Of a stretch of DNA of 38,020 bases, positions 1-30,668 are shown piece after piece; positions within the stretch are counted from its first letter, which is position 1; each line of letters opens with the position of its first letter. A program made the translations under genes and the position numbers. Below the pieces are notes generated by a model, which worked only from the letters and a program-made list of their open reading frames with translations, ran no database searches and had not been told where the DNA came from. Origin of the DNA: Patescibacteria group bacterium (lineage in GTDB: Bacteria; Patescibacteriota; WWE3; UBA101185; UBA10185); NCBI GenBank assembly GCA_016926555.1, contig JAFGOI010000005.1, positions 1 through 38,020 of the forward strand. The letters are read 5' to 3'.

Positions 1-1564
1 AGTCTCCGATGCCCAGTCTTCCGGAGCCGTTATAATAGAACGAGTAGTTATCAAGGGATAAGCTTCCGGTAGACGCGATAAAGTATAGTCCGGCTTGGGG
101 AGTTGAACCTCCGACAGTTAGATTGTCTGTCTGAGAGGTAAGAGTAGTCATAGAACCAAGGTCGGCCCATTTAGAAGAACCTCCGCCGAGTATACTTATC
201 TGTTGATCTAGGTCGTCTAGAATATCTTGAAGCCTCGTGTTATCCGAGTTAGTGAGTTCATCGTATACGCCAATTAGATAAGCTCCCGAAGTCGTTGCTG
301 TTCCTGAATCTCCGATTCCTATACTGCCAATGTGCAGATCGTATCCGGTGGCAATGTAAGCGTTACCTGCTACATCCAGAGTGCCTTGCGGGGACGAAGT
401 TCCAATACCCAATCTATTATTCGCGCCGTTATAAAAGAAAGTGTAATTGTCTAAAGATAGGCTTCCCGTGGAGGTGTTTAAGTAGAAATCTGACGTGGTT
501 CCCGATCCACCCATTGCTACATGATCGCCAGTTGCTGTTAAATAAGATATTGTTCCCCCGTCAGTCCATAGGGATATACCTCCGCTGGCAATTGCAGTGT
601 CTAGATCATCCAAAACGTCTTGTACATTTGTAGCACTTGAATAGGTAAATTCATCATATACACCTATTAGATAGGCTCCGGATCCTGTTCCGGATGAAGT
701 TCCGTCAAGGCCCAGCCTTGATATCGGTTCATCCCACTCCGGCATGTCTCCATCCGAGAATAGTACGTATCCGCTTGAACCTATATTTAGAACGTCAAGC
801 GAGTCGCTTCCGTCGGCATATAGAATATCACCCTCGTCGTATGAGTCTAGTCCTGTTCCTCCGTATTCTGGAGCGATAATATCTCCTGACCAGGAAGTTA
901 CATTAGTTATGACTCCTCCGTCTATACCAAGTAGTGACCCCTCTGTGTCGTCAAGTGTCCCTAAGTCTATTCCACCCATTGCGCCAACCGTATTGTCATT
1001 AAGAAATCCTGTTACATCTCCTGTGAGTTCAAGACTATCTTCAAGTGTTGTTTTCGTTACAGCATTTATGGCACCCAAGTCGTTCATTATGGCGGTATCC
1101 CTAAATGTTAATGATGTGAGGTTTACCTCATTTGCAGTTGCGAGTCCTTCGAATGTTGACTCTCCCAGAACTGTGAGGGTTCCCTCTATACGCGCCGATT
1201 TAGCAAAAATAGTATCTTCTAAGAATTGAACGGGGTTTCTGAAGAATGTATCTAAATAAATATTCAGATCATATTCCTCGTTTGTATACGCGGCGAGTAC
1301 GTTTCCATCAGTTTTGCTATCAGATTTTTTTCTTGAGTCCGGATCAGAGGCGTCTGTATTTTCATCATCTTCATCTAATGTACTCTCTCTCACATTTGAC
1401 TCATTATATGCGTCTTTGACTTTAAGAGCTTGCTTAAATTGTGAAAATGTAAGAAGTGACAAAGAGGAGAATATTATGGAAAACACCAACAACCCCGCTA
1501 GGGCAGACTTTATGTCAGGCTTTTTAACACTCTCTTGGGCAAGAATTTTCATTTTTTCGAACAT
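1..1564 (-). CDS. Large repeat-containing surface protein, N-terminal part (runs off left edge)
   Basis: The minus-strand frame is open from the ATG at 1564 to base 2 with no stop, giving about 521 visible residues. The N-terminus has a cytoplasmic stretch and one hydrophobic segment (about residues 22-42, LAGLLVFSIIFSSLSLL), then an Asp/Glu/Ser-rich linker and a beta-rich repeat region. A block of about 131-132 residues occurs twice: it contains AYLIGVYDE, then a LDDLD stretch, then SLDNYxFxYNG followed by RLGIG. Such LGIG blocks are common in phage tail-fibre-like and S74-peptidase-terminated surface proteins of Patescibacteria. The C-terminus lies outside the window, so a self-cleaving chaperone domain cannot be checked. 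A -10-like TATAAT (1569-1574) lies four bases before ATG 1564; a second in-frame ATG is at 1552. The role is probably an anchored cell-surface fibre or adhesin (inference). Confidence 0.85.
   Translation of the reverse strand, partial: MFEKMKILAQESVKKPDIKSALAGLLVFSIIFSSLSLLTFSQFKQALKVKDAYNESNVRESTLDEDDENTDASDPDSRKKSDSKTDGNVLAAYTNEEYDLNIYLDTFFRNPVQFLEDTIFAKSARIEGTLTVLGESTFEGLATANEVNLTSLTFRDTAIMNDLGAINAVTKTTLEDSLELTGDVTGFLNDNTVGAMGGIDLGTLDDTEGSLLGIDGGVITNVTSWSGDIIAPEYGGTGLDSYDEGDILYADGSDSLDVLNIGSSGYVLFSDGDMPEWDEPISRLGLDGTSSGTGSGAYLIGVYDEFTYSSATNVQDVLDDLDTAIASGGISLWTDGGTISYLTATGDHVAMGGSGTTSDFYLNTSTGSLSLDNYTFFYNGANNRLGIGTSSPQGTLDVAGNAYIATGYDLHIGSIGIGDSGTATTSGAYLIGVYDELTNSDNTRLQDILDDLDQQISILGGGSSKWADLGSMTTLTSQTDNLTVGGSTPQAGLYFIASTGSLSLDNYSFYYNGSGRLGIGD
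181..290 (-). repeat. Surface-protein repeat block, copy 2 (AYLIGVYDE segment)
   Basis: This is the second copy of the 131-codon unit. It encodes AYLIGVYDEL followed by RLQDILDDLD. The differences from copy 1 are conservative substitutions, so the copies are diverged tandem modules and not a recent duplication. Confidence 0.75.
571..695 (-). repeat. Surface-protein repeat block, copy 1 (AYLIGVYDE segment)
   Basis: This part of the partial surface protein encodes AYLIGVYDEF, then NVQDVLDDLD. The same segment recurs about 393 bases further into the gene with a few substitutions. The downstream part of the unit (SLDNYTFFYNG followed by RLGIG, around 400-470) recurs at about 2-60. The period is therefore about 131 codons. 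Confidence 0.75.
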
Positions 1565-5921: not shown

Positions 5922-7064
5922 ATGCGAATTCGAAAAAAAGTTAAAATGACTGCCTTATTTAACAAAATTCTTGAGTTTATTAGAAGGATTTTCTTTCGGG
6001 ACTATTACAAAAAAACGCCCAGGAAAAAGAGAAAACCCGTTGAAGCTGTTGTCTCGCTTAAATTTGCGAAATACACTAATAACCCCGTTATTTCCCCGAA
6101 TGAAGAAAACCACTGGGAAGCTTGGCAGACTTTCAACCCCGGAGTGGTTCAGCTGGATGATGATAGAATACATTTTGTTTATAGAGCGATAGGCAGAGAT
6201 GGACTATCTCGTTTAGGTTATGCAAATTCATCTGACGGATATGAAATTCAGGAGAGGCATCCTGAACCTATTTTTTCACATAACACGATAGTGTCTAAAT
6301 ATACCGTATTTTCGATGGAATCCGGAGGGAGTTGGGGCGGTTGTGAAGATCCCAGACTGGTCCGCGTTGAAGGAGAGGATGTTATTTACATGACTTACAC
6401 GGCTTGTGATGCGGGGCTTAGGATGGCTCTGACTTCTATAAAAGTTCAGGATTTTTTGGATAAAGTTTGGAATTGGACTCCTCCGAAATTGGTTTCACCC
6501 CCCGGGGAGGTACATAAAAACTGGGTTATATTTCCCGAGAAAATAAATGGTAAGTATGCGGTTCTTCATAGTATTAACCCTGAAATATCGATAGAGTATC
6601 TCGATAACTTGGAATTTAAAGACAGTAAATATATTATAAGCCTATATGGTGGCGCAAAAGCTCCAAAAGATAGATGGGACAACTGGATTAGAGGAGCCGG
6701 ACCCCCACCGATTAAAACAAAAGAAGGTTGGTTGCTTTTCTATCATGCGATGGATATGAGAGATCCTGGTCGTTATAAGGTCGGTGCGTTGTTGTTAGAT
6801 TTAAAAGATCCGACAAAGGTATTGCATAGAGCTAAATCGCCTGTTTTGGAACCGGATCAGTGTTATGAAAATAGCGGTTTTAAACCGGGAGTCGTATATG
6901 CCGTTGGATCCGCGGTTGTTGGCGGAACGTTGTTTCTCTACTATGGCGCTTCGGACAGTTATATTTGTGTGGCTCATACAAACTTGAATGAATTTCTTAA
7001 GGAGTTATTAAAGGATAAAGGGAAGAAGTTAACGCTTGAACCTGTCGAGAAGGACGTAGTATGA
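5922..7064 (+). CDS. GH130-family mannoside phosphorylase / beta-mannosidase
   Basis: The 380-residue protein has a basic N-terminal extension (about residues 1-45) and then a five-bladed-propeller GH130 domain. Visible motifs are NPVISP, FNPGVVQ, FVYRAIGRDG and GGCEDPR with D143, the position of the acidic catalytic residue in this family as I recall it, then FPEK, GPPPIKT, GWLLFYHA and YGASD. GH130 enzymes phosphorolyse or hydrolyse beta-mannosides such as Man-beta-1,4-Glc or beta-1,2-mannans. I cannot tell which from sequence alone. There is no signal peptide, so it acts in the cytoplasm. Its stop overlaps the start of the tandem GH130 gene by four bases. An alternative ATG lies at 5946, and neither start has a clear ribosome site. 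Confidence 0.9.
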   Translation: MRIRKKVKMTALFNKILEFIRRIFFRDYYKKTPRKKRKPVEAVVSLKFAKYTNNPVISPNEENHWEAWQTFNPGVVQLDDDRIHFVYRAIGRDGLSRLGYANSSDGYEIQERHPEPIFSHNTIVSKYTVFSMESGGSWGGCEDPRLVRVEGEDVIYMTYTACDAGLRMALTSIKVQDFLDKVWNWTPPKLVSPPGEVHKNWVIFPEKINGKYAVLHSINPEISIEYLDNLEFKDSKYIISLYGGAKAPKDRWDNWIRGAGPPPIKTKEGWLLFYHAMDMRDPGRYKVGALLLDLKDPTKVLHRAKSPVLEPDQCYENSGFKPGVVYAVGSAVVGGTLFLYYGASDSYICVAHTNLNEFLKELLKDKGKKLTLEPVEKDVV

Positions 7065-8971
7065 TCGTTGAGAGATCAGAAAGAAATCCCCTACTAAAAC
7101 CAGATAGCTCAAAACCTTGGGAGGCAGAAGCTGTTTTTAACGGATGCCCAGCGAAAAAGGGCCTTACGACCTATTTGTTATATAGGGCGCTTTCGTCTGC
7201 GCATTATAACAATTATGCGAAGACAACTATGAACCTGTCTACAATTGGAGTAGCTGAAAGTTGGGATGGGGTGCATTTTAAGAATAGGAAGCAATTAATA
7301 ATACCCGAGGAACCTTGGGAGAGATTTGGTTGCGAAGATCCAAGAGTTACTAAAATCGATAATAAATACTATATTTTTTATACGGCCTTATCACGATATC
7401 CATTTAATGCGGATGGAATAAAGGTTGGGGTTGCCATCACAAAGGATTTCAAGAAAATCCAGGAAAGGCATTTGGTTACTCCATTTAATGCGAAGGGCAT
7501 GGTATTGTTTCCCGATAAGATAGGCGATAGATATTGGGCGATCTTAACAGCTAATACAGATAGGCCTCCTTCCAAAATTTCGTTAGCGTCATTTGATACG
7601 GAGAGCGAAATGTGGTCGCGTGAGTATTGGGAAGACTGGTATAAGAATTTAGATACTCATACACTAACTTTGACTCGGCGAAAACAGGATCATGTAGAGG
7701 TAGGGGCGCCTCCTATAAAAACAAATCACGGGTGGCTACTTTTGTATTCGTATATTAAAAACTACAATACTCCTGTTGTATTGTTCACTATTGAGGCAGT
7801 ATTGTTGGATCTAGAGAATCCCCATAAGATTATTGCCCGAACTGAAATGCCTCTTTTAACTCCGGATGAGTATTATGAAAGAGTGGGGCTTGTCCCTAAC
7901 ATAGTATTTCCTTCGGGGGCAATGGTTAAAGGGGATATTATTTACTTATATTATGGGGCTACCGATACTACTATATGTTTAACTTATATCGAACTTTCTT
8001 CCCTTTTAGATAGAATGCTTGAAGATTATAAGACTGTTACCGTGATAAGAGGTAAGGAGAATCCAATTATTAAACCCGATAAGACACGAAATTGGGAGAG
8101 TTTTGGTACATTCAATCCAACAGCGATTTATTTGGAAAATAAAGTGAGGATTTTATACAGAGCTCAATCTAATGATTTTACATCTGCGCTTGGATATGCG
8201 GAGAGTTCAGATGGTGAGACAATAGATTATAAATCAGACGAACCGGTATATATACCAAGAGAGCCGTTTGAGAAAAAAGCCAAATCAGAAGGCTTTTCCG
8301 GATGTGAAGATCCAAGAATAACCTTGATGGACGATAAGATATATATGTGCTATACGGCGTATGATGGAGTGAATCCAACAAGAGTAGCATTATCCGAGAT
8401 TTCCAGGGAAGATTTTTTGAACAGGAACTGGAATTGGAGCCGCCCTATCTTAGTTACTCCTCCGGAGGATTATAACAAAGACGCATTGATATTTCCCGAG
8501 AAGGTAAATGGTCAGTATATGATAGTACATAGGAGCGGAGATGATATTGATTACTTTTTTAATGAGGATCTGAAGTTTGGGATTTATGGTTGGGCAGAGG
8601 AACATAGGTGGATAAATGTTAGGAAAGGTTGGTGGGACAGCAGGAAAGTGGGTGCCGCTTCAACTCCGATTAGAACAGATGCCGGATGGATATTTTTTTA
8701 TCACGGTGTTTCTGAAGATAATATTTATAGGGTTGGCGCCGTTTTATTAGATTTAAATGATCCGTTAAAAATAATAGGTAGAACAGATGTGCCTATTTTG
8801 GAGCCGGAGGCTCCTTATGAATTGGAGGGGAATGTTCCTAATGTTGTTTTTCCTTGCGGGAGTGTTTTAATTGGAGATTATATATATCTTTATTATGGAG
8901 GCGCGGATAAAGTTGTGGGTACAGCAAAATTTAGATTAAAAGAGTTGCTCGATATTATAAAGAGAGTTTAG
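7061..8971 (+). CDS. Tandem double-domain GH130 protein
   Basis: At 636 residues it is about twice the usual GH130 length. Domain 1 (about residues 1-325) has the catalytic-type motif GCEDPR with D93 and ends YYGATDTTI. Domain 2 (about 330-636) has NPIIKPD, ILYRAQ, GCEDPR with D417, FPEKVNG, TPIRTDAGW and YYGGADK. Both acid motifs are intact. Domain 2 is closer in pattern to the upstream single-domain protein (both keep the NWxWxxPxLVxPP segment), while domain 1 is more divergent and lacks FNPG, having FNGCP instead. Fused GH130 pairs are unusual as far as I know. The ATGA overlap with the preceding gene implies coupled synthesis and perhaps one complex. There is no export signal. Confidence 0.9.
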   Translation: MIVERSERNPLLKPDSSKPWEAEAVFNGCPAKKGLTTYLLYRALSSAHYNNYAKTTMNLSTIGVAESWDGVHFKNRKQLIIPEEPWERFGCEDPRVTKIDNKYYIFYTALSRYPFNADGIKVGVAITKDFKKIQERHLVTPFNAKGMVLFPDKIGDRYWAILTANTDRPPSKISLASFDTESEMWSREYWEDWYKNLDTHTLTLTRRKQDHVEVGAPPIKTNHGWLLLYSYIKNYNTPVVLFTIEAVLLDLENPHKIIARTEMPLLTPDEYYERVGLVPNIVFPSGAMVKGDIIYLYYGATDTTICLTYIELSSLLDRMLEDYKTVTVIRGKENPIIKPDKTRNWESFGTFNPTAIYLENKVRILYRAQSNDFTSALGYAESSDGETIDYKSDEPVYIPREPFEKKAKSEGFSGCEDPRITLMDDKIYMCYTAYDGVNPTRVALSEISREDFLNRNWNWSRPILVTPPEDYNKDALIFPEKVNGQYMIVHRSGDDIDYFFNEDLKFGIYGWAEEHRWINVRKGWWDSRKVGAASTPIRTDAGWIFFYHGVSEDNIYRVGAVLLDLNDPLKIIGRTDVPILEPEAPYELEGNVPNVVFPCGSVLIGDYIYLYYGGADKVVGTAKFRLKELLDIIKRV

Positions 8972-10547: not shown

Positions 10548-12401
10548 ATGAATAAAAAACATCTGCCCCTGATATTTTTTACACTTTCATTTTTCTTAGC
10601 GTTTGGTTCTTTTTCCAGCAGACCTGCATTAGCTGATGGAATGGTTCTACCTCCTTCTAATAGGTATATATATGAGACAGAGCAGAAAGCGGTAATCTGG
10701 TATGACGAAAAAACTCAAAGGGAAACTCTAGTGTTATCAATATCCTTTGAAGGTGACGCCGAAGATTTCGCGTGGGTTGTACCTGTACCTAGCAAACCGG
10801 AAGTTGAGAAAGCCAGGAATGAGTTATTTTTGGCTTTGGAAGAGCTGACTGCTCCAACAGTGAGTAGAGTGCAGTATGATACCGGCTATAAACTTATGGC
10901 ACCCGAGGCCAGCGATAATGCTGTCACAGTAGTAGAAAGTAAGGAAATTGGCTATTACCATATAGATGTTTTAAGTTCTACGGATGCTGGGGAACTGGCA
11001 AAATGGCTATCCGATAATGACTATCACTATCCTGAAAAATATTCATATGTTCTTGAAGATTATATGGGAGATACTTGGCATTTTGTTGCAGTTAAAGTAA
11101 ATCAGTCAAAATCTGGTGATTATGTAAGTGGCCAGTTGAACTCTGGTAATGCTACGCCATTAAAAATTAGTTTTGGATCGGAGCGGATTTTCTATCCTAT
11201 GAAAATATCCGGGGTTCTTTCGCAGGAAGGGTCACCGGAAGTTGATACCGGCTATGATAGGCGGGGAGTTGATCCGACGTATATAGACAGTCCGCGGCAT
11301 AAATACCTTGTGTTTGATGGTAATGATGATTACGTCTCACTTCCACGTATGAATTTGAATGGCTACGAGACTTACACCCTGGAAATGTGGGTCAAACCTG
11401 ATGATTTTCTACAAGAAAACGGATGGCGGAAAAGGCTTGCTTCGTTTGCGGATTTAGATTTAGCACTATACGAAACTAACGCTTTTTCGTTTTATTCAAC
11501 AAGTTATGGTAGCTATATTACTTCATCAAACTATACTCCCGGGAGGTGGTATCACTTAGCACTTGTAAAAAGCACGGAGACATCCGGGGATAAAACCACA
11601 TCGCCGAGATTATATTATGAAGATACAGAGTATGATTATAATGACCGAGAAATGATGTATCCGTCTCAGCCCCCGATTAGACAAACTCCAAAATATACAT
11701 TGTACATAAACGGAGAGGAGGTTACCACTTTTAGAGGAGGTATAACCAATCATTCTATCGAAAGCACTCTTTTAGGCGTAGGTGTTAGAAATACTGACAG
11801 CACATATAGAGGTCACTTTAAAGGAAGTATGGATGAACTTAGAGTTTGGAGTGTGGCCAGAACTTCAGACGAAATTGTGGCAAATATGAACAAGCATATT
11901 TCCGGATCATTACCCGGATTAGTTGGTTATTGGGATTTTAATGGGTATGGGGAAAATATAGTCGATTCAAGTTTATATGCTCGTCACGGGAAATTGATGA
12001 AAATGGTGTACTCGCCCCAAGTCAATACAGCAAATAAGAGAGTTCAAGTAGAGTTATATGTGTTCTCAAAAGACAAAACTGCTATACCTGGATATTCTAC
12101 AACATACGCAGGTTGGTTAAACGCAGATAAGATAGAAAACTTGGCAAGTGACCCCGAAGATGGCCCCTGGATGGATGTAAGCAACAGCGCTTGGCTGACC
12201 AAAATGTCTAGATCCATGCTTCAATCTGAGATGACGGAGGATATATTTGTCAAAACCGCAGAAGATAATACGATTGTAGGCTCGGGTTCAGGTAAGTTAT
12301 CATTTATGACTCCGTTGAAGGGGACCTTATTCTTTGTTCCCATTGCAGTTGAAATTTTGTTGATTATTCGCTGGAAGCGAAAAAAGAAAGAAAAAAATTA
12401 A
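10548..12401 (+). CDS. Secreted, anchored DUF2330 protein with an inserted LamG domain
   Basis: The 617-residue protein has a signal peptide at residues 1-29 (cleavage probably after ALA). It then starts the DUF2330 domain DGMVLPPSNRYIYETEQKAV, with FAWVVPVPSKPEV following. At about residue 250 a LamG/concanavalin-like domain begins (YLVFDGNDDYVSLP, YTLEMWVKP, YTLYINGEEV, GSMDELRVWSVART) and runs to WDFNGYGENIVDSS near 480. The DUF2330 fold then resumes (VQVELYVFSKDK, YAGWLNADKI). A C-terminal helix (about 590-606) and a KRKKKEKN tail anchor it. The LamG is therefore an insertion inside DUF2330, not an appended module. A carbohydrate- or protein-binding surface role is inferred. It is in an operon with the next gene. 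Confidence 0.9.
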   Translation: MNKKHLPLIFFTLSFFLAFGSFSSRPALADGMVLPPSNRYIYETEQKAVIWYDEKTQRETLVLSISFEGDAEDFAWVVPVPSKPEVEKARNELFLALEELTAPTVSRVQYDTGYKLMAPEASDNAVTVVESKEIGYYHIDVLSSTDAGELAKWLSDNDYHYPEKYSYVLEDYMGDTWHFVAVKVNQSKSGDYVSGQLNSGNATPLKISFGSERIFYPMKISGVLSQEGSPEVDTGYDRRGVDPTYIDSPRHKYLVFDGNDDYVSLPRMNLNGYETYTLEMWVKPDDFLQENGWRKRLASFADLDLALYETNAFSFYSTSYGSYITSSNYTPGRWYHLALVKSTETSGDKTTSPRLYYEDTEYDYNDREMMYPSQPPIRQTPKYTLYINGEEVTTFRGGITNHSIESTLLGVGVRNTDSTYRGHFKGSMDELRVWSVARTSDEIVANMNKHISGSLPGLVGYWDFNGYGENIVDSSLYARHGKLMKMVYSPQVNTANKRVQVELYVFSKDKTAIPGYSTTYAGWLNADKIENLASDPEDGPWMDVSNSAWLTKMSRSMLQSEMTEDIFVKTAEDNTIVGSGSGKLSFMTPLKGTLFFVPIAVEILLIIRWKRKKKEKN

Positions 12402-14961: not shown

Positions 14962-16347
14962 TTATTGTTGTTGAGAAGTCAAGGCTAAATAGTCCATTGG
15001 TTTTGTATTTGTTGTTTTCGCAACAATTACAAAAGGAAATTGAGTGATTAGTGTATTAAGCTTATTAACACTTCTGTTATAAAACGCGCGTGAATACGCA
15101 ATTCTCTCTTCAGTATCAATAAGGCTTCTCATCAACTCTTGGTAACTATCTATAGCATTTAACTCAGGATATTTTTCGCTGATTGCAAGGAGTGGAGAGA
15201 TTACATCAGCTGTTTTTTCTGGTAGATCATGCTGGAATCTTGTTTGCATCCTTAACTGTGCAGTTAAGTTTTGGATATTTTTTTCGTGTGAGGAATACCC
15301 TTTTATTACCTCAACTAACCTGGGAATTAATTCTGATCTTCTTTTTAACTCTATATCTATGTTGCTTAGAGCTGATAGCGCTCGTTGTTTTAATGTGTTA
15401 AGTCTGTTATGCATGGTGAATAAAATACTACCTAGTATTAAGAAGTTGCCTATACTAAGAGACATATAAACGAAAGCAGGATCAAAATGGTAATGGTAAT
15501 TTGCTGAAAGAAGAGCCGTTGTAAAACCCAAGGATGTTAGTAGGTGAACAAGGAATACAAGACTTTTCCCTTTGTAAAACTCTTCGACGTATTTCTCCTT
15601 AGTTTTATTACTGATTATAAGCTGGTGTTTTTCATGTTCCTTTAAAACTAACTCTCCATTTTCTTTTAGAACGAAACCATGCGCAAATATCTTAGTGTTT
15701 GGCATAAGAACAAATTCACTTTTTCTAAATCTATTGGAACCAATACTAAAAATAGAATCTGTTCTTTTCACTTTAAACTCTTCATGTTTAATAATTGGAA
15801 TTGCATCTATTTCGCTATCGTGAGGTGGAGGTATGGGTCTGGTGAAATCTCTCATAATGTAACCAGAAAAATCCTTATCCATGTTTGATATGTCTACTTT
15901 TAACTTACCTCTCTCATCTACAATGTAGAAAGGTACAAAGTTAACAATGTTTTCCACGGTTTCCCATCTTGAACTTTTTCCCCCTTGGATATACTTTTCA
16001 GTTATGCTGTGATAATAAACACAGTACGTGTTTGTGTATGGGGATTTGAGTAGATTACCTTCAATTTCTTTAATTATTCCGTGACAAGAAAACGGAACAT
16101 CTGGAGTTGCTTCGTTTGTTTCAAGAAGAGGTAGTAAATCAATATCATAAATTTCATTTTCACTTTTGAGAAATACCTTAGTGTAATAAATACTTGAAAT
16201 AAATACAATAATACCGCTGATAAACAATTTAAAAGACATAGTATCTGGGGAAAAACAATCAGCGCAATCTTCATAAAAAGCTAGCAGTACTATAGTGCAC
16301 ATTAAGAAGATCATTGTAAGTGCATATTTTGTGGATACGCGTTTCAC
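14962..16347 (-). CDS. GIDE-LemA fusion membrane protein
   Basis: The 461-residue protein starts at GTG 16347. Two N-terminal membrane helices (about 10-25 and 38-58) frame a short loop. A GIDE-type domain follows (about residues 75-265), with the signature SCHGIIKEIEGNLLKSPYTN, then YCVYYHSITEKY and FAHGFVLKENGELVL. Two more helices (about 270-310) lead into a LemA domain (about 318-455), shown by ALSNIDIELKRRSELIPRLV, IAYSRAFYNRSVNKLN and FPFVIVA. GIDE domains in eukaryotes sit beside RING ligases; bacterial ones lack the RING, as here. The function of LemA is uncertain and probably membrane-stress related. The gene is single, with a -10 six bases before its start. Confidence 0.85.
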   Translation of the reverse strand: MKRVSTKYALTMIFLMCTIVLLAFYEDCADCFSPDTMSFKLFISGIIVFISSIYYTKVFLKSENEIYDIDLLPLLETNEATPDVPFSCHGIIKEIEGNLLKSPYTNTYCVYYHSITEKYIQGGKSSRWETVENIVNFVPFYIVDERGKLKVDISNMDKDFSGYIMRDFTRPIPPPHDSEIDAIPIIKHEEFKVKRTDSIFSIGSNRFRKSEFVLMPNTKIFAHGFVLKENGELVLKEHEKHQLIISNKTKEKYVEEFYKGKSLVFLVHLLTSLGFTTALLSANYHYHFDPAFVYMSLSIGNFLILGSILFTMHNRLNTLKQRALSALSNIDIELKRRSELIPRLVEVIKGYSSHEKNIQNLTAQLRMQTRFQHDLPEKTADVISPLLAISEKYPELNAIDSYQELMRSLIDTEERIAYSRAFYNRSVNKLNTLITQFPFVIVAKTTNTKPMDYLALTSQQQ

Positions 16348-22889: not shown

Positions 22890-25844
22890 CTAATTCACCC
22901 AGAAAAGTCCTCTTTCAGTTGAATCTTGAAAGAAGTTCCCATGACGCATGATATCACTTGTTCCTGGTGCAGTTGTGATTTTTGGATAACCATCTGCGTT
23001 ATAAGCTGCGAATACGGTGCCGTCTCCCCTTATCATTCTAAAACAGTAGGTAGTATTATCAATTGCCCCATTGTTTTCTATAGGCCAATCCCACTCACTT
23101 GTTTCTGTAACTTGAATATCGTTTGGATTTGCTCCAGTAGGATTAATTTCAGAGTAGAATCCTTCAGCAGAGGATGTGGATGTAGATACGTCGTTTACTT
23201 GTGGCGTAGTGTCACCAATGCCAGTTTCGTCGTATAGGCGCCAAATCTCCCCAGATCCCTTGGTACCAACGTCAGTCCATCCGGTTGCTGTAGTGCAGTC
23301 CTCAGCTGTGTCGTACTGCAACTTGAAAGTTCTAGCACCTGGGTTTAAATAAATAGTACCAGCGGTGATATTCATTTGTACGCGAATTTGGTCATGGGGT
23401 TTTAGAGTCATATTTGATGCCGGGAGTTGTGTTAGCACCTCATTTTCGCTGAGATCCCCACCTATTCCGGGTGGCCAAGGGTTAGTTAGGGTAACAGAAC
23501 TTTCCGGAACAAAGAATTCAAAGTCGTTTTGTGTATATGATGTAGCTGTCCATGTTACTGCCCAATCCTCTAAATAAGGTGTTCCGCTAGAATCGGTTAA
23601 AGTCGCTTTGAGACAGATATTATTGTATGTTGTTGAAACTGGGTAAAGATCGGATATATCAATGGGGCTGGCAGCAACATCAAAACCGGATGAATTTCCG
23701 GCAAGTATACCATCAGGTACTATTGTATCGCATGGGGTTGATACTGTGTAATAAACACTTAATTTTACATCGCCTGCTGATTCGGTTGTACTAAAACTTA
23801 TTTCATCCCACACATCCTGACCACTAACGAAATCAAAATCTATCTCTGGGGACATAACTGTTGCGGGGCTTGCTAGTGCAGGCTGCCAAGATGCAGAAAC
23901 TCGGGTCATTCTGTTTGCACCGCTCGTAAATGTGGAGCTTAGTGTGGTTTCGGTGCCAGTTGCATATCTGAGCTCTGCTACACAAAACAGCGAGCTGGTG
24001 TCCTTAAAATCATATAATTCATCTTGGTTTTGTCCCTGGGCCCAAGAGGTACCTGTGTTGCCACAGCCGGCTGTGGAAAATACCCAAGAATGTTCAGAGG
24101 GGCTAATGGTATTTTCGATTGTATCATCAGGGGATGATGCCTCTGCAGTCTCGTCGGTTGTTTCTGGGGGGCCTTGATATACGCCTGTATATTCCGCGGC
24201 GAACCCGTTGATTTCTGGTTCACTTGCTGTTCCCGTGCCGGTTATAGCTACCGTTTGGGAACCTGTACTTGGCATATCCGCATCCAATATATACCAAATT
24301 TCTGAGAGGTAACGGAAACCAGAGGTGCCTGTAATAGCTGTTTCACCCTCTGTCATAGCTACGCCGCCATATGTTACACCTGTGACATCGGCAGTATTGC
24401 CGTTTTCAACGCCGATGTAAACAACAACAAGCCTGTTTGTTCCAGCTTCAAGTGTGTGACTAAAAGACACAGATAAGGCCCCCGCCGTTCCGTTTGTATC
24501 TGTTCCAACTTTGGCAATAGTGCCAAGAGAAAGTTCGACAGAATCAGCTCCACTTGTTTCCGAGTTGGTTAATGTTCCTGTATTAAGTTGTTCGTCCGTT
24601 GATTGATACCATTCATCTGGGTCTGTGCCTGAAACGTATCTAATACTCTGAACAGCGGAGTACGCACCATAGGTGCCCGAACCTCCCGTCCCAGAGTCGT
24701 CTTCAGCTCGAACACGCCAATAGTATGTATTTCCAGTTGTCATTGATGTAGCAGGTGTGAAACGGATTCTTTCACCTTCGTTGAAAGGGTTTGTATCCCC
24801 GCCGGAAACAGTATTTGAAAAGGTTCCGCTACCTGCAACACAGGAGGTATCTGATTCACAGTTGATTAGTGGCGAGCCAAAAGCATAATCGTCATCAACT
24901 TGTATTTGGTAAATAATATCTGCAGATCCATCTGGATCGCTAGCAGTAAATTCATATATGGGTGCGGAATCCCCAGTCCTTATATTGTCAAAAGGAGTAT
25001 CATGAAGTGTTGGTGCATCCGGACTAGTCATTTCTCTTACAGCGAATTGAAAATAAGCAGCGCCATCACTTACAGCACACGTTACTGTAGCTGAACCAGT
25101 TCCCCCTGCCGTAGCCATATCTCGTGTTCCCCATGTGCCGCTGGCATTCTCTGCTCCTGTGCCTGCTGTTTGTTCACCTCTCTCACCCCATCCTGTTCCG
25201 GCCACGCTGAAGGGGTATCCATCACCCCCATCAAAGCTTAAGCCGTAAAATACCAGGGTATCATTTTCAGTGGTTGTTACCTGAGGTATTGCGTGACTGG
25301 TGGTGTCGGTTGATGACTGAGTGAAATTGTATACATTTATAGGTGAGTTTATGTTTGCACCGGAAACTCGGATATACCAGCCGAACATATCGTCGAATGT
25401 TGCAGCGTTTACGGTTACCTTTCCTTCTGTTCCCGTAGCCACGCGCCAAAAAGCGGCAATATGAGCTTGTGCAGTAGCATTACCTCCCTCATCAATTTGA
25501 GTCCAACCGGATGCTATTGAAAATTCATCCCCTGCTTCAGCATCATCACTGCCTACTATTATTATTAAAAGTTCTCCTGCAGTAATTCCAGAAGGAGGAG
25601 CAAGTGTTAGACGACCCATGTCATCCGCCCCTCCGCTTGTTGCTTGAAATCCCTCCACTACGGGTATTGCTGCGTATGCAAGTCTTGGATTGAATGTGAA
25701 CTTTAGAGTATTGACTTTAAAAGCCGGTATTCCAACGAAAAACAGAGAGAAAATTGTAAAAAATGCAAGAATTCTTACTGTAGGCAAAAAGAGCTTTATT
25801 ATTGTTTCCTTCCTTATGAGTATACTTTTAGCAAGGGTTTTCAT
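22890..25844 (-). CDS. Giant modular surface protein A
   Basis: The 984-residue protein has an N-terminal basic segment and a signal anchor (about residues 25-45), then modules. A beta-sandwich at about 58-270 begins VEGFQATSGGADDMGRL. An Fn3-like module (about 275-400) has PFDNIRTGDSAP and IIYQIQVDDDYAF. A jelly-roll-like module (about 440-650) has NGTAGALSVSFSHTLEAGTN. A beta module (about 660-765) has MSPEIDFDF. The C-terminal module (about 770-984) has WRLYDETGIGDTTPQVND and ends MRHGNFFQDSTERGLFWVN. Four modules match protein B across the divergent promoter region. It is probably exposed at the surface, with a role in attachment or as a surface layer (inference). The start at 25844 lacks a clear SD. 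Confidence 0.85.
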   Translation of the reverse strand: MKTLAKSILIRKETIIKLFLPTVRILAFFTIFSLFFVGIPAFKVNTLKFTFNPRLAYAAIPVVEGFQATSGGADDMGRLTLAPPSGITAGELLIIIVGSDDAEAGDEFSIASGWTQIDEGGNATAQAHIAAFWRVATGTEGKVTVNAATFDDMFGWYIRVSGANINSPINVYNFTQSSTDTTSHAIPQVTTTENDTLVFYGLSFDGGDGYPFSVAGTGWGERGEQTAGTGAENASGTWGTRDMATAGGTGSATVTCAVSDGAAYFQFAVREMTSPDAPTLHDTPFDNIRTGDSAPIYEFTASDPDGSADIIYQIQVDDDYAFGSPLINCESDTSCVAGSGTFSNTVSGGDTNPFNEGERIRFTPATSMTTGNTYYWRVRAEDDSGTGGSGTYGAYSAVQSIRYVSGTDPDEWYQSTDEQLNTGTLTNSETSGADSVELSLGTIAKVGTDTNGTAGALSVSFSHTLEAGTNRLVVVYIGVENGNTADVTGVTYGGVAMTEGETAITGTSGFRYLSEIWYILDADMPSTGSQTVAITGTGTASEPEINGFAAEYTGVYQGPPETTDETAEASSPDDTIENTISPSEHSWVFSTAGCGNTGTSWAQGQNQDELYDFKDTSSLFCVAELRYATGTETTLSSTFTSGANRMTRVSASWQPALASPATVMSPEIDFDFVSGQDVWDEISFSTTESAGDVKLSVYYTVSTPCDTIVPDGILAGNSSGFDVAASPIDISDLYPVSTTYNNICLKATLTDSSGTPYLEDWAVTWTATSYTQNDFEFFVPESSVTLTNPWPPGIGGDLSENEVLTQLPASNMTLKPHDQIRVQMNITAGTIYLNPGARTFKLQYDTAEDCTTATGWTDVGTKGSGEIWRLYDETGIGDTTPQVNDVSTSTSSAEGFYSEINPTGANPNDIQVTETSEWDWPIENNGAIDNTTYCFRMIRGDGTVFAAYNADGYPKITTAPGTSDIMRHGNFFQDSTERGLFWVN

Positions 25845-25959
25845 TGTTCTCGAGCTATTTGTTTCTATAAATAACTAAAATAATTATAACAAACACTTTA
25901 GATTGATTATAGAGAGTTAGAGTACCATTAGCTCCATAAGTGATGTTAACATATATATA
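25845..25959. promoter_or_regulatory. Divergent promoter region of surface proteins A and B
   Basis: The 115-base, very AT-rich spacer lies between two paralogous divergent genes. It has several -10-like strings, including TATAAT at 25956-25961, which overlaps the ATG of protein B. No convincing -35 pair or operator was found. Shared control of both genes is possible from position alone. Confidence 0.4.
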
Positions 25960-28900
25960 ATGGAAAAACGTGAGTGCTGCACTGCCAAGTTAGAATCCGG
26001 TGTATTTGTTTCTGTTGCGGTGTTTTTGTTCACTTTTTTGTCCATTCTGAAGTTGGCTGATCTTAAACCGTCTTACGCACAGGATTTATCGTGGGGTGTT
26101 CTTGCTATTAATACAAATAAGTCTGTTTATACTCCTGGGGAAGTGGCTAAGATAGATATTGCTGTTCTTGATCATGAAGGAGAGATGGTTTGTGATGCAG
26201 AATTAAGGTTGGCGGTTGTAGATCCCCTTGGGAGAGTTACTATTTTATCAACTGCGGATAATACTATTAAGGTCAATCCAGAATGTAAAGTAAAGGGTGT
26301 AGTCAATAGACCTGATTTTGAAGCAGTTTATAGTGTGGGTGCAGAAGGTAAATATGAGATGAAGCTTGAAACGAGGACGTCTGCGGGGAGTTATTCAATA
26401 ACTGACTCGTTTGTAGTCAAAAAAGATGTTTTGTTTGATGTTGAGAGGATTACTGCAACAAGGATTTATCCAGTTAAAGATTATCCCGCGGTTATAAAAG
26501 TGGTTCCAAATACAGATTTTCGAGGACGGGTTACAGAAATTGTACCGAGTAATTTTGAAATAAAAGAGACAAGTGAGGAGCTTTTTGAGTTGTTTACAGG
26601 TTTGGAAGATGAAAAATATGCTGTTCCCTACTCTACTGACACTTTTGTTGGCGACCAAGATGGTGCGGCCTTATTAAGATGGGATGTAAATTGGAAAAAG
26701 GGCGAAACATATTACTTAACATATTCATACAATGCACCTGATATGAGTCCGGAATACTATACTTTAGGACCGGTCGCACTTACAAACGAACAAGATGCTG
26801 CTATATTTACAGAAACAAGAAACTGGGAAGTAGCTTCAGACGCGGCCACCATAGCACTGCTTGATTCGGCAAGTAATGGGACAGCAGGAGCTTTGAGCCT
26901 AACCTTTAGTCATACACTAAGTGCAGGCGCTAATAGAATGGTGATTGTACTAGTTGGAATAGAAAACGGAGATACTGTTTCCTGCTCCTCTTCTGCCGTC
27001 ACATATGGTGGTGAAAATATGACCAGAGCGGTAACTGAACTTACTGGTACATCCGGGTTTAGATCGTTAACCGAAATATGGTATTTACTAGAAGCCGATT
27101 TGCCAAGCGAGGGCTCAAACAATGTAGTAATAACGTGTACAGGAACATCCAGCGCTCCTGAAATAAATGGTGTGGCTATGACACTCGAAGAAGTAGACCA
27201 AACAGCACCAGATGACACGAACTCACAATCTCAAACTAGTACGGCTGACATATCAACTAGTATTGTACCTGTTGTAGATAACTCCTGGCTTATAGATGCT
27301 TTAACTCTAGGGGATTATACCGTCACTCCAACAGTTGTCTCCCCTCAAACCGAAGAGTACAGTTTTCAAGACACCTCCTCGTACTTTTCTGTGTCCACAA
27401 ATAGAGATGTAGCTGCCGGATCAGATGCAATGGCTTGGACGCACTCCTCTGTAAATAGAGAGGCACATGCGGTAATAGCAATTGCTCCTCATCCGGGAGC
27501 TGTTCCTATAACCTTAAATGATCCCTTTGACAATATAAAGCTTGGTGATTCCACACCTAGTTTTGATTTTACTGCGTATGATTCGGACGGGACAGCAGGT
27601 ATAATCTATCAAATCCAAATTGACGACACCTACGATTTTAGTTCGGCTTTCATCGATTGCGAGTCAGACACAACATGTACCGCCGGCAACGGCTCTTTTT
27701 CCAATACGGTCACGGTTGGAGATACCAGTCCCTTTAATGAAAATGAAAAAGTACGGTTCACACCTACCACACCAATGACAACCGGAACAGTTTATTACTG
27801 GAGGGCAAGAGGTGAGGATGCTGCAAGTGAAGGCGGCTCCGGAGCTTACGGTGAGTGGTCTGCTATTCAAAGTGTTACCTACATAGACGGAACGAGACCT
27901 TCGGAGTGGTTTCAGACTGCAGACGAGCAATTTGATACGGGCACACTGGATTTAACGCAGACAACTGGGTCAGATTCGGTAGAACTTGAGTCAGGTCTTT
28001 CCTATTACGGTGTAATATCTGGAATGTCACCTGATTATTGGTGGCGGCTTGATGGAGATGAAACGGATTCCGCGGATAGTGCGAATTCTGATGGTGGTAA
28101 TGATCCATCTTGGGCGGCATCTATAATACCGGCCATTTCGGCTACGAATGAATGCGGGAATTACAACGGAACCAATGATGAAACATATATTCCAAATCAG
28201 ACAGACATAAACTCAGCTACTACATATCAGAAATCAATATCGGTGTGGATTGACGCAGACACACTCGATACGTCAAGTAATGGACGAGTAATATGGGGAG
28301 AGGGGGGAACTTACAATGGGTTGGCGTTATACATATATGGTACAAGTTTGTACTTTCTTGTATATGAAAGTTCTAACAGAGATTATATCTCGACCACTAT
28401 AAGCACGGGTACTCTCTACCATATAGGGGTAACTCTTGATACTACAGCTCAGGAAATGTATTTGTATATTGATGGGGATGTAGCTGCCAGCGATACAGAT
28501 GGATTAAATATTGGTTCCGATTTCGCGGCGCACTCAGCGGGTGCTGCAATAGGCGGAGTTGATTCCAATCTTGTGAATCATAGCGGGAGTACGATGAGTG
28601 GGTTTTTTGATGGGGATATCGCGGATGTCGTTTATTGGGCGGAACAGACGGTGTTAAGCGAAAACGATTTCGAGACTATATATGCTGCAGGTGTGGGGGA
28701 GCCTGCTAACGGCTATATAACATCGCCAACTATTGACTTTGACTCTGTCCCCGGAGGTATAGCATGGAATCAGTTTTTATTTTCTGATACAGAACCGGGG
28801 AGCAATATAACCTATGATATTCAATATTGGGATGGTGATAGCTGGGAGAATACATCTATTGTTGACCAAGACTTTTCACCTGTAGATATATCAGGACTTG

Positions 28901-29649
28901 ATCCGAGTGTTTACAATGAAATTAGAATTGTGGCATTTTTGGAGTACGTAACAGCTGGACCAACTTTGTATGACTGGACGATAACATGGTACGCGCCGGA
29001 TTATACTCAGAACGATTTCGAATGGTTTGTAACAACAAATTCCGTTACGTTAACAAACTTGTGGCCGCCTGGAAATGGTGATAATTTTAGTGAGAATACG
29101 GCTATAACTCCGCTTCCGGTAACAAACCGGCCTTTAATAGATGGAGATCAGATACGGATTCAGATGAATCTCGCGGTGTCGTCTTCAACACTTCTTACGG
29201 ATAAGCAGACCTTTAAGCTGCAATATAGCGCTGCGTCTGACTGTACTACTGCCAGCAGTTGGACGGATGTTGGGGCTAAGTCATCCGGTTCCATATGGCG
29301 GTTATTTGATGAAACGGGAATCGGTGATACAACACCGCAAGTTAATGATATTTCTACATCTACATCGTCAGCGGAGGGTTTCTATTCGGAAATTAATCCT
29401 ACGGGAGTAAATCCAAATGAGGTTGCGATTGGTGAAAATGTGGAATGGGATTGGCCGGTGGAAAATAATGGCGCGGCAGAAAATACGACTTATTGTTTCA
29501 GGATGGTTAAAGGGGACGGAACTGTGTTTAGGACGTATAATTCCGATAGTTATCCTAAGCTAAACACTGCGCCGGGAGTGTCGGATTTTATGCGGCATGG
29601 TAATTTCTTTACTAATTTAGAGAAGGCCGGTTACTTTTGGGCGAATTAG
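25960..29649 (+). CDS. Giant modular surface protein B with LamG domain
   Basis: The 1229-residue protein has a signal anchor at about residues 14-36. An alpha-2-macroglobulin MG-like region follows (about 42-290; NTNKSVYTPGEVAKIDIAV). The jelly-roll-like module (about 300-505) has NGTAGALSLTFSHTLSAGAN. The Fn3-like module (about 515-640) has PFDNIKLGDSTP. A LamG domain (about 680-925) has ISVWIDADTL, MYLYIDGDVAAS and FFDGDIADVVYW. A beta module (about 930-1010) has ITSPTIDFD. The C-terminal module (about 1015-1229) has WRLFDETGIGDTTPQVND and ends MRHGNFFTNLEKAGYFWAN. Compared with protein A, the Fn3 and jelly-roll modules are in swapped order. The downstream gene follows at once. Confidence 0.87.
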   Translation: MEKRECCTAKLESGVFVSVAVFLFTFLSILKLADLKPSYAQDLSWGVLAINTNKSVYTPGEVAKIDIAVLDHEGEMVCDAELRLAVVDPLGRVTILSTADNTIKVNPECKVKGVVNRPDFEAVYSVGAEGKYEMKLETRTSAGSYSITDSFVVKKDVLFDVERITATRIYPVKDYPAVIKVVPNTDFRGRVTEIVPSNFEIKETSEELFELFTGLEDEKYAVPYSTDTFVGDQDGAALLRWDVNWKKGETYYLTYSYNAPDMSPEYYTLGPVALTNEQDAAIFTETRNWEVASDAATIALLDSASNGTAGALSLTFSHTLSAGANRMVIVLVGIENGDTVSCSSSAVTYGGENMTRAVTELTGTSGFRSLTEIWYLLEADLPSEGSNNVVITCTGTSSAPEINGVAMTLEEVDQTAPDDTNSQSQTSTADISTSIVPVVDNSWLIDALTLGDYTVTPTVVSPQTEEYSFQDTSSYFSVSTNRDVAAGSDAMAWTHSSVNREAHAVIAIAPHPGAVPITLNDPFDNIKLGDSTPSFDFTAYDSDGTAGIIYQIQIDDTYDFSSAFIDCESDTTCTAGNGSFSNTVTVGDTSPFNENEKVRFTPTTPMTTGTVYYWRARGEDAASEGGSGAYGEWSAIQSVTYIDGTRPSEWFQTADEQFDTGTLDLTQTTGSDSVELESGLSYYGVISGMSPDYWWRLDGDETDSADSANSDGGNDPSWAASIIPAISATNECGNYNGTNDETYIPNQTDINSATTYQKSISVWIDADTLDTSSNGRVIWGEGGTYNGLALYIYGTSLYFLVYESSNRDYISTTISTGTLYHIGVTLDTTAQEMYLYIDGDVAASDTDGLNIGSDFAAHSAGAAIGGVDSNLVNHSGSTMSGFFDGDIADVVYWAEQTVLSENDFETIYAAGVGEPANGYITSPTIDFDSVPGGIAWNQFLFSDTEPGSNITYDIQYWDGDSWENTSIVDQDFSPVDISGLDPSVYNEIRIVAFLEYVTAGPTLYDWTITWYAPDYTQNDFEWFVTTNSVTLTNLWPPGNGDNFSENTAITPLPVTNRPLIDGDQIRIQMNLAVSSSTLLTDKQTFKLQYSAASDCTTASSWTDVGAKSSGSIWRLFDETGIGDTTPQVNDISTSTSSAEGFYSEINPTGVNPNEVAIGENVEWDWPVENNGAAENTTYCFRMVKGDGTVFRTYNSDSYPKLNTAPGVSDFMRHGNFFTNLEKAGYFWAN

Positions 29650-29672
29650 GTGAGTTTAGCCAAAGAGTGTTT

Positions 29673-30668
29673 ATGGGTTCTTTAGAACGAAGAAAATCAA
29701 CTAGATCTGTGTTGTTTTTGTTCTGTGCGGGTATCGCTTTTGGCGGGTTTGTGCGTGCCAGGGAAAATATTAGCTCATATAAAGAAATAGATAAAAATGG
29801 TTATACCCAAATTGTGTATAAAAAAGGCGGTAAAAAAGTTCAGATAACCGACGAGCAGTTTCCGCATACAGACCCGAAAAATAGTGAGTCGTTTATCGTA
29901 TGGGCAAGTCAGGTAGGGCAATACTGGCAGATATTTTATTATAACGTAGCCGCCGAAAGAACCGTTCAGCTTACTTCGCAGGAGAATAATGTTAATCCCC
30001 AGATTTTCGGTAAATATATTGTATGGGAGGGACAAAGGAACGGTGTTTGGCAGATTTTCCTTTTTGATGGAGTGCGCACTAAACCGGTTACTTCCGGAGT
30101 GTATCCTTCCCAAGATGTGGCTATAAATGATGGGTATGTAGCGTTTTCGAGAAAATCCGTAGATAACAAGTGGAAAGTTTATTATTACGATATTTCCTCC
30201 GAAGATCTAGTTAACCTTACTCCGGCCGAATCAGGTAAAAAACCAATTATTAAAAATGGCCAGATAGTTTGGTATTCGACAGAGCAGGACAAGAGAAACG
30301 CGGTATTTTACAGGTACGATCTTAATACAAAGTTAAAATACCGTGAGGGAACATTGAGTGAGAAAGGAGTGATTAGCAGTAATATTGATCACAATCTTGA
30401 AAGGCTTGCCGCTGAACAAGGATCTGGGGGAAGTGGCTTTCGGCTTAACCGAGATAATATTTATAAAATAGTTACAGTTGATGATATTAAAGAAGAAATA
30501 TCCGAAATTCAGGGGGTAAATGAGTCAACTGCGTCTGAAACAGATACATTTGAGGAAGATGTTGATAGTGTTGTAGAGGCCGAGGAGACGCGGGAGTCTA
30601 CATCTTCACATGATGAAGAGGAGACAACAGAGGAGACAACAGAGGAGAGTACTTCCTCTGAAGACTAG
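29673..30668 (+). CDS. Exported TolB/beta-propeller-like protein with acidic tail
   Basis: ATG 29673 is chosen over the TTG at 29637, which lies inside the end of protein B. The 331 residues begin MGSLERRKSTRSVLFLFCAG, a signal peptide or anchor. Four to five propeller-type repeats follow (about 30-220), each with a strand like SFIVWASQ, YIVWEGQR, YVAFSRKS or QIVWYSTE, then WQIFYYN or WKVYYYD. The last 60 residues are Glu/Thr/Ser-rich low complexity. It starts 23 bases after protein B, so it is probably co-expressed as part of the same surface system. Confidence 0.75.
   Translation: MGSLERRKSTRSVLFLFCAGIAFGGFVRARENISSYKEIDKNGYTQIVYKKGGKKVQITDEQFPHTDPKNSESFIVWASQVGQYWQIFYYNVAAERTVQLTSQENNVNPQIFGKYIVWEGQRNGVWQIFLFDGVRTKPVTSGVYPSQDVAINDGYVAFSRKSVDNKWKVYYYDISSEDLVNLTPAESGKKPIIKNGQIVWYSTEQDKRNAVFYRYDLNTKLKYREGTLSEKGVISSNIDHNLERLAAEQGSGGSGFRLNRDNIYKIVTVDDIKEEISEIQGVNESTASETDTFEEDVDSVVEAEETRESTSSHDEEETTEETTEESTSSED

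Follow-up and report, generated by a model that had tools for sequence, protein, structure and literature searches.

A Conserved C-Terminal Tail of Secreted Patescibacteria Proteins and Its Pairing with the Gene of a Phage-Tail-Fibre-Like Giant

A short element, named here the RHG tail, closes two secreted proteins encoded side by side in the genome of a Patescibacteria group bacterium. It is a conserved, C-terminal element across Patescibacteria, which is present or absent independently of the domains that precede it. Both the tail as a tag and its pairing with the gene of a fibre-like giant were well supported by the comparisons described below. To our knowledge, little has been established about how most Patescibacteria bind to other cells, and a phylum-wide C-terminal signature with a linked fibre gene can be used to look for adhesins and surface enzymes in the thousands of genomes that lack annotation. 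The window is the whole stretch of DNA that was analysed, 38,020 nucleotides of the contig called C9.

Results

ORF A (22890..25844, minus strand) encodes a secreted modular protein of 984 aa with an N-terminal signal sequence, and ORF B (25960..29649, plus strand) encodes a secreted modular paralogue of 1229 aa in divergent orientation, with 115 bp between the two. Three blocks common to both proteins were obtained by BLASTP. The putative Fn3-like block covers residues 279-441 of A (24522..25010, minus strand) and 518-679 of B (27511..27996, plus strand), with 62% identity. The putative jelly-roll-like block aligned A 441-~690 with B 296-~544 at 41% identity and was mapped as A ~441-655 (23880..24524, minus strand) and B ~296-515 (26845..27504, plus strand). 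The C-terminal block aligned A 663-984 with B 920-1229 at 56% identity. The jelly-roll-like block precedes the Fn3-like block in B and follows it in A, so the shared modules with swapped order described by the first-pass annotation were recovered. Neither of these two blocks had a Pfam match above cut-off, and no Fn3 was found. The same annotation had assigned additional MG-like and LamG domains to B; both parts are indeed in B alone, but their names are weak. The MG2-like stretch (26110..26241, plus strand) reached 16.9 of the 32.8 bits of the curated Pfam cut-off (E=0.008) and the LamG-like block (27997..28704, plus strand) 12.8 of 22.9 bits for Laminin_G_2 (E=0.17). The C-terminal module before the tail lies at 22959..23537 (minus strand) in A, where it is ~190 aa long, and at 29017..29580 (plus strand) in B. 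It is 66% identical between the two with the tail included, and elsewhere it is found without the tail.

The synonymous sites were saturated in every shared block (pS 0.81-0.86), dN was 0.17-0.55, and in the C-terminal block 109 of the 169 identical residues are written with different codons in A and B. Because the synonymous differences are saturated, the duplication is judged old and the identity kept by purifying selection, in agreement with the earlier statement that the module identity is old and selected. As read from their sequences, both secreted proteins descend from an ancient duplication and are under this constraint.

The tail of A is located at 22893..22967 (minus strand; PGTSDIMRHGNFFQDSTERGLFWVN and then the stop) and that of B at 29572..29646 (plus strand; PGVSDFMRHGNFFTNLEKAGYFWAN and then the stop). 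Both read MRHGNFF-x8-FW-x-N, with 18 residues from R to the end, which matches the ending previously described and sets its spacer at x8; both fit the general form of the tail, R-[HG]-G-x-[WF]-F ~16-25 residues before the stop. A degenerate pattern of this ending had 2 sites in the 872 kb genome and its reversed control 0. The 27 tails collected gave the consensus P-x5-h-[ML]-R-[HG]-G-x-[WF]-F-x5-10-aromatic end, of ~25 residues. In the core R-H-G-x-[WF]-F the residues R, H (G once), G and F are near-invariant; M or L stands before the core, and a Pro is located ~7 residues before the R. The aromatic end was FWxN, FWWxx, QPFTF or FSW, and QQPxDTPxY in family f20. The length from R to the end was 16-25 residues in 26 of the 27 tails, the exception being that of G061 with 37 and a Pro-rich extension; the tail of G346, which was read apart from the 27, has a longer extension and ~36 residues from R to the end.

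An unbiased scan of 84,980 genomes was carried out with the pattern [M/L]RHG[K/N]xF-x(6-8)-FW, no stop codon being demanded. It returned 16 matches. Long ORFs of Patescibacteria accounted for 13, each with the motif starting 19-21 residues before the stop. The ending in the middle of proteins, which the first-pass annotation had named as evidence against its proposal, was thus seen in none of these 13. The remaining 3 matches were in short frames in other phyla, as chance predicts. A chance motif was ruled out by the reversed-pattern controls together with the clustering at the C-terminus in the pattern scan. All complete tail proteins checked had an N-terminal hydrophobic signal, except that of locus L074, where the start is unclear. 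No hydrophobic C-terminus was found in the complete tail proteins checked, the maximal 19-residue hydropathy being <1 over the last 60 residues of 13 tail proteins.

It had been proposed that the ending is specific to this lineage and that the genome and its relatives be searched for it. The genome search returned only A and B, and the carriers outside it were distant Patescibacteria instead of relatives. Searches of 56 relatives and of 44 further class genomes returned no relative of the C-terminal module. Among 26 family relatives, none had a tail within an ORF of >=60 aa; candidate tails in two of these (G016, G022) were rejected, being outside any such ORF. The module recurs in 24 of 380 genomes of the phylum, and the 13 long-ORF tail carriers belong to Dojkabacteria, Woesebacteria, Microgenomates, Saccharibacteria and unclassified Patescibacteria. 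A lineage-specific tag is therefore ruled out, since the tail is missing from 26 family and 44 class relatives and yet occurs phylum-wide, across distant families. Only ~1-3 tail genes were seen per genome. In the source genome the tail is missing from a LamG/DUF2330 surface protein of 617 aa (10548-12401, plus strand), from the beta-propeller protein and from the fibre giant; taking into account the first of these, the RHG tail is not a general surface tag there.

The cargo that carries the tail includes LamG domains, Kelch propellers, an M23 peptidase with MG2, the Fn3/jelly-roll-like type of A and B and, in L076, a glycine-rich region. The proteins with MG2 and an M23 peptidase domain (L152, 6835-9570, minus strand; L151, 1256-4087, plus strand) are candidate peptidoglycan hydrolases at the cell surface. 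The module that precedes the tail is often internal in giants of up to 7010 aa, and considering that these matches stop before the tail, module and tail are separate; the LamG-associated domain was also seen without the tail. Alignments A3 and A4 consist of sequences recovered by means of the tail, so tail conservation is biased in them. The query of A1 was the module including the tail and that of A5 the LamG-associated domain without it, and in both searches the tail was present in several further genomes and absent in many. It was also possible to see that many other Patescibacteria giants (L045, L049, L054, L055, L057 and others) end in ...AGxYxxxVVYxVxxxF, which is possibly a second C-terminal signature.

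The partner of the tail genes is a giant whose C-terminal domain has the signature PEYPGAVLTGDG...GTMTSD (the "PEYPGA" domain); as a rule the tail gene comes straight after it. In the six loci found by the tail alone with their 5' flank kept (L071, L072, L074, L076, L083, L084), the PEYPGA giant is directly upstream of the tail gene, or one gene away in the case of L076 (genome G354). Direct adjacency was likewise observed in G061, G137, G251 and G331, and the gaps between the two genes were ~-7 to +7 bp where measured. The PEYPGA domain was present in 37 of 380 phylum genomes: in 10 of 12 tail genomes, all found without help of the partner, versus 27 of 368 others (p=1e-9), and, counted by family, in 5 of 7 versus 11 of 149 (p=1e-4). 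G106 and G159 were excluded from the stricter statistics, one search pattern having been derived from their tails. The reverse search, in the DNA downstream of PEYPGA genes, found large genes ending in variant tails in G091, G106, G159, G211, G239, G285, G323, G331 and G346; all of these except G331 were first reached via the partner (G211, G239, G285 and G323 being f20 loci) and do not count as independent evidence. No adjacent tail gene was found beside the fibre giants of f71, f98 and f49, nor beside some of those of f20. In f71 and f98 (L155, L156, L157, L158, L160, L162, L163, L167, L168) two PEYPGA-domain genes stand in tandem and a tail gene is missing; the fibre may take a paired form there.

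The partner matched PHROG tail-fibre families at 1e-18 and 3e-9. It resembles phage tail fibres in its repeats and its intramolecular chaperone, the latter (Peptidase_S74) only in L072. The fibre copy of the source genome contains 16 GIGTxxP-like motifs versus 0.025 in shuffles, and the partner of L083 is without this repeat motif. The first-pass annotation, right about divergent paralogues with shuffled modules, had missed this conserved gene partner. A phage origin of the tail or the module was also considered and rejected, as neither phage records nor viral contigs contained a match. A contig of 164 kb classed as viral (L186) encodes a relative of the PEYPGA domain.

In the source genome the fibre giant is encoded away from the tail genes, on another contig (C13), and runs off the end of that contig; a second beta-propeller gene lies behind it. 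The first ORF of the window (2..1564, minus strand) encodes the N-terminal 521 aa of a phage-tail-fibre-like protein with the repeat GIGTSSPQGTLDV and runs off the start of C9. Considering that both have the same repeat, this ORF may be the N-terminal part of the C13 giant; no overlap was found between the ends of C9 and C13, so a single fibre gene over the two is a guess. If the ORF belongs to the fibre gene, A and B are ~21 kb from it. The source genome has both the tail and a PEYPGA giant and the sampled class relatives have neither, which suggests that tail and fibre were gained or kept together.

Directly after B there is a secreted beta-propeller gene (29637..30668, plus strand; probable ATG start at 29673), whose orthologues come straight after the tail genes of L074, L081/G202 and G251 and are separated from that of L076 by one small gene. 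In loci of the f29 type this place is taken by a cyclophilin-type prolyl isomerase (L071, 2880-3503; L075, 1837-2505; L078, 791-1447; L079, 3517-4176; L085, 616-1233), followed by ComEA/ComEC-like genes; the order is conserved and links the cargo gene to competence genes. Elsewhere in the window, two adjacent genes with matches to glycosyl hydrolase family 130 (mannooligosaccharide phosphorylase family; 5922-8971, plus strand) form a tandem that is unusual in so small a genome, and one ORF (14962-16347, minus strand) had a match to the LemA family as well as to a GIDE-type (E3 ligase-like) domain.

Discussion

The reading that we favour, with about even confidence, is that the RHG tail would be a portable element that docks or sorts interchangeable adhesins or enzymes as its cargo, partnered with a surface fibre. 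The tail would act as a recognition element that delivers or docks varied cargo (lectin-like, Kelch propeller, M23 peptidase, Ig/jelly-roll-like) to the cell surface. Its most likely receptor would be the partner fibre, and fibre and tail protein together would form a fibre-plus-adhesin surface structure, which makes the tail and the PEYPGA domain a concrete candidate binding pair. Since there is neither a transmembrane segment nor an LPXTG-like motif, attachment via the tail would be non-covalent or by unknown machinery. Both tail-domain types were modelled with low confidence (mean pLDDT 53 and 50, tail 33-45), so no binding face can be named, and a PDB fold search with these models gave nothing below 0.01. 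The occurrence of the tail on M23 peptidase and LamG proteins suggests a role in host contact or wall handling. More tentatively, and as a possibility that falls short of probable, a trimeric phage-tail-fibre-like giant may be loaded via a universal RHG docking tail with exchangeable adhesins or wall-cutting enzymes for contact with host cells.

A portable, strictly C-terminal tail on many kinds of secreted protein is also consistent with a signal for sorting to, or anchoring at, the surface that the envelope or an unknown machine would read, the fibre giant being merely co-regulated; the adjacency of the two genes could indeed be co-regulation only, and in the source genome the tail genes are unlinked to, or far from, the fibre gene. 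However, the low number of tail genes per genome and the tail-less surface proteins of the source genome argue against such a signal, and so do the tail loci themselves, where the fibre giant is the only neighbour shared by most of them and no processing enzyme recurs constantly; we consider this explanation rather unlikely. The sorting or attachment signal of the first-pass annotation survives in part, given that the tail acts like a portable C-terminal signal on unrelated domains, though not one specific to the lineage.

By eye, the short aromatic-rich pattern P-x(n)-R-x-G-x-W is like the hairpins of phage fibres, the partners are fibre-like, and two short strands are predicted for the tail, with low confidence, in the model of A, all of which would suit a folding or trimerisation element (a foldon-like beta-hairpin) of fibrous adhesins. 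This is improbable in our judgement, taking into account that the LamG, M23 and Kelch cargo is not fibrous, that none of 21 tails matched a Pfam/NCBIfam family at E<=5, and that a profile of the 21 retrieved no PDB chain at E<=10, which leaves membership in the T4 fibritin foldon with no support from sequence; foldon-fused chains are, as far as we know, present in the PDB. Inside any single cargo type the tail goes with its domain, as if it were that domain's final strand, retained through common ancestry and without function of its own. That idea is largely refuted by the diversity of the cargo, with the same tail after non-homologous domains and the same domains also without it, and we give it very little credence.

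Comparison with Known Systems

Portable C-terminal signatures are known, and the RHG tail is not described in the sources searched: the string RHGKWF was not found in the literature searched, and searches for the tail motif or for such surface proteins gave nothing relevant. The tail resembles those of LPXTG/sortase, PEP-CTERM/exosortase, MYXO-CTERM and the T9SS CTD in being a short portable C-terminal signature on secreted proteins of unrelated architecture. It differs from them in that it has no transmembrane helix, no LPXTG, PEP or Cys motif and no basic end; it has an aromatic end and few copies per genome, and it is linked to a fibre and not to a sortase. No LPXTG motif was found in A or B, no hydrophobic helix in 13 tail C-termini, and no Pfam/NCBIfam match to the T9SS CTD (Por_Secre_tail) among the 21 tails at E<=5.

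In T4-type phages the long tail fibre gene (gp37) is followed directly downstream by a separate gene for the tip adhesin (gp38). Our loci share with this arrangement that a variable binding protein is encoded immediately after the fibre, and the partner has tail-fibre and S74 matches. Here, in contrast, the proteins are cellular and secreted, with signal sequences, and neither the tail nor the cargo showed homology to phage proteins. Among Patescibacteria, surface adhesins have been described in Saccharibacteria, including the type IV pilus component PilX2 with a beta-propeller (PMC12206443). By description only, they are alike in being candidate secreted adhesins with propeller domains for host contact; the portion of that report drawn on here does not mention the RHG tail. 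The RHG tail is thus set apart from each known class of C-terminal signature by its anatomy and by its partner.
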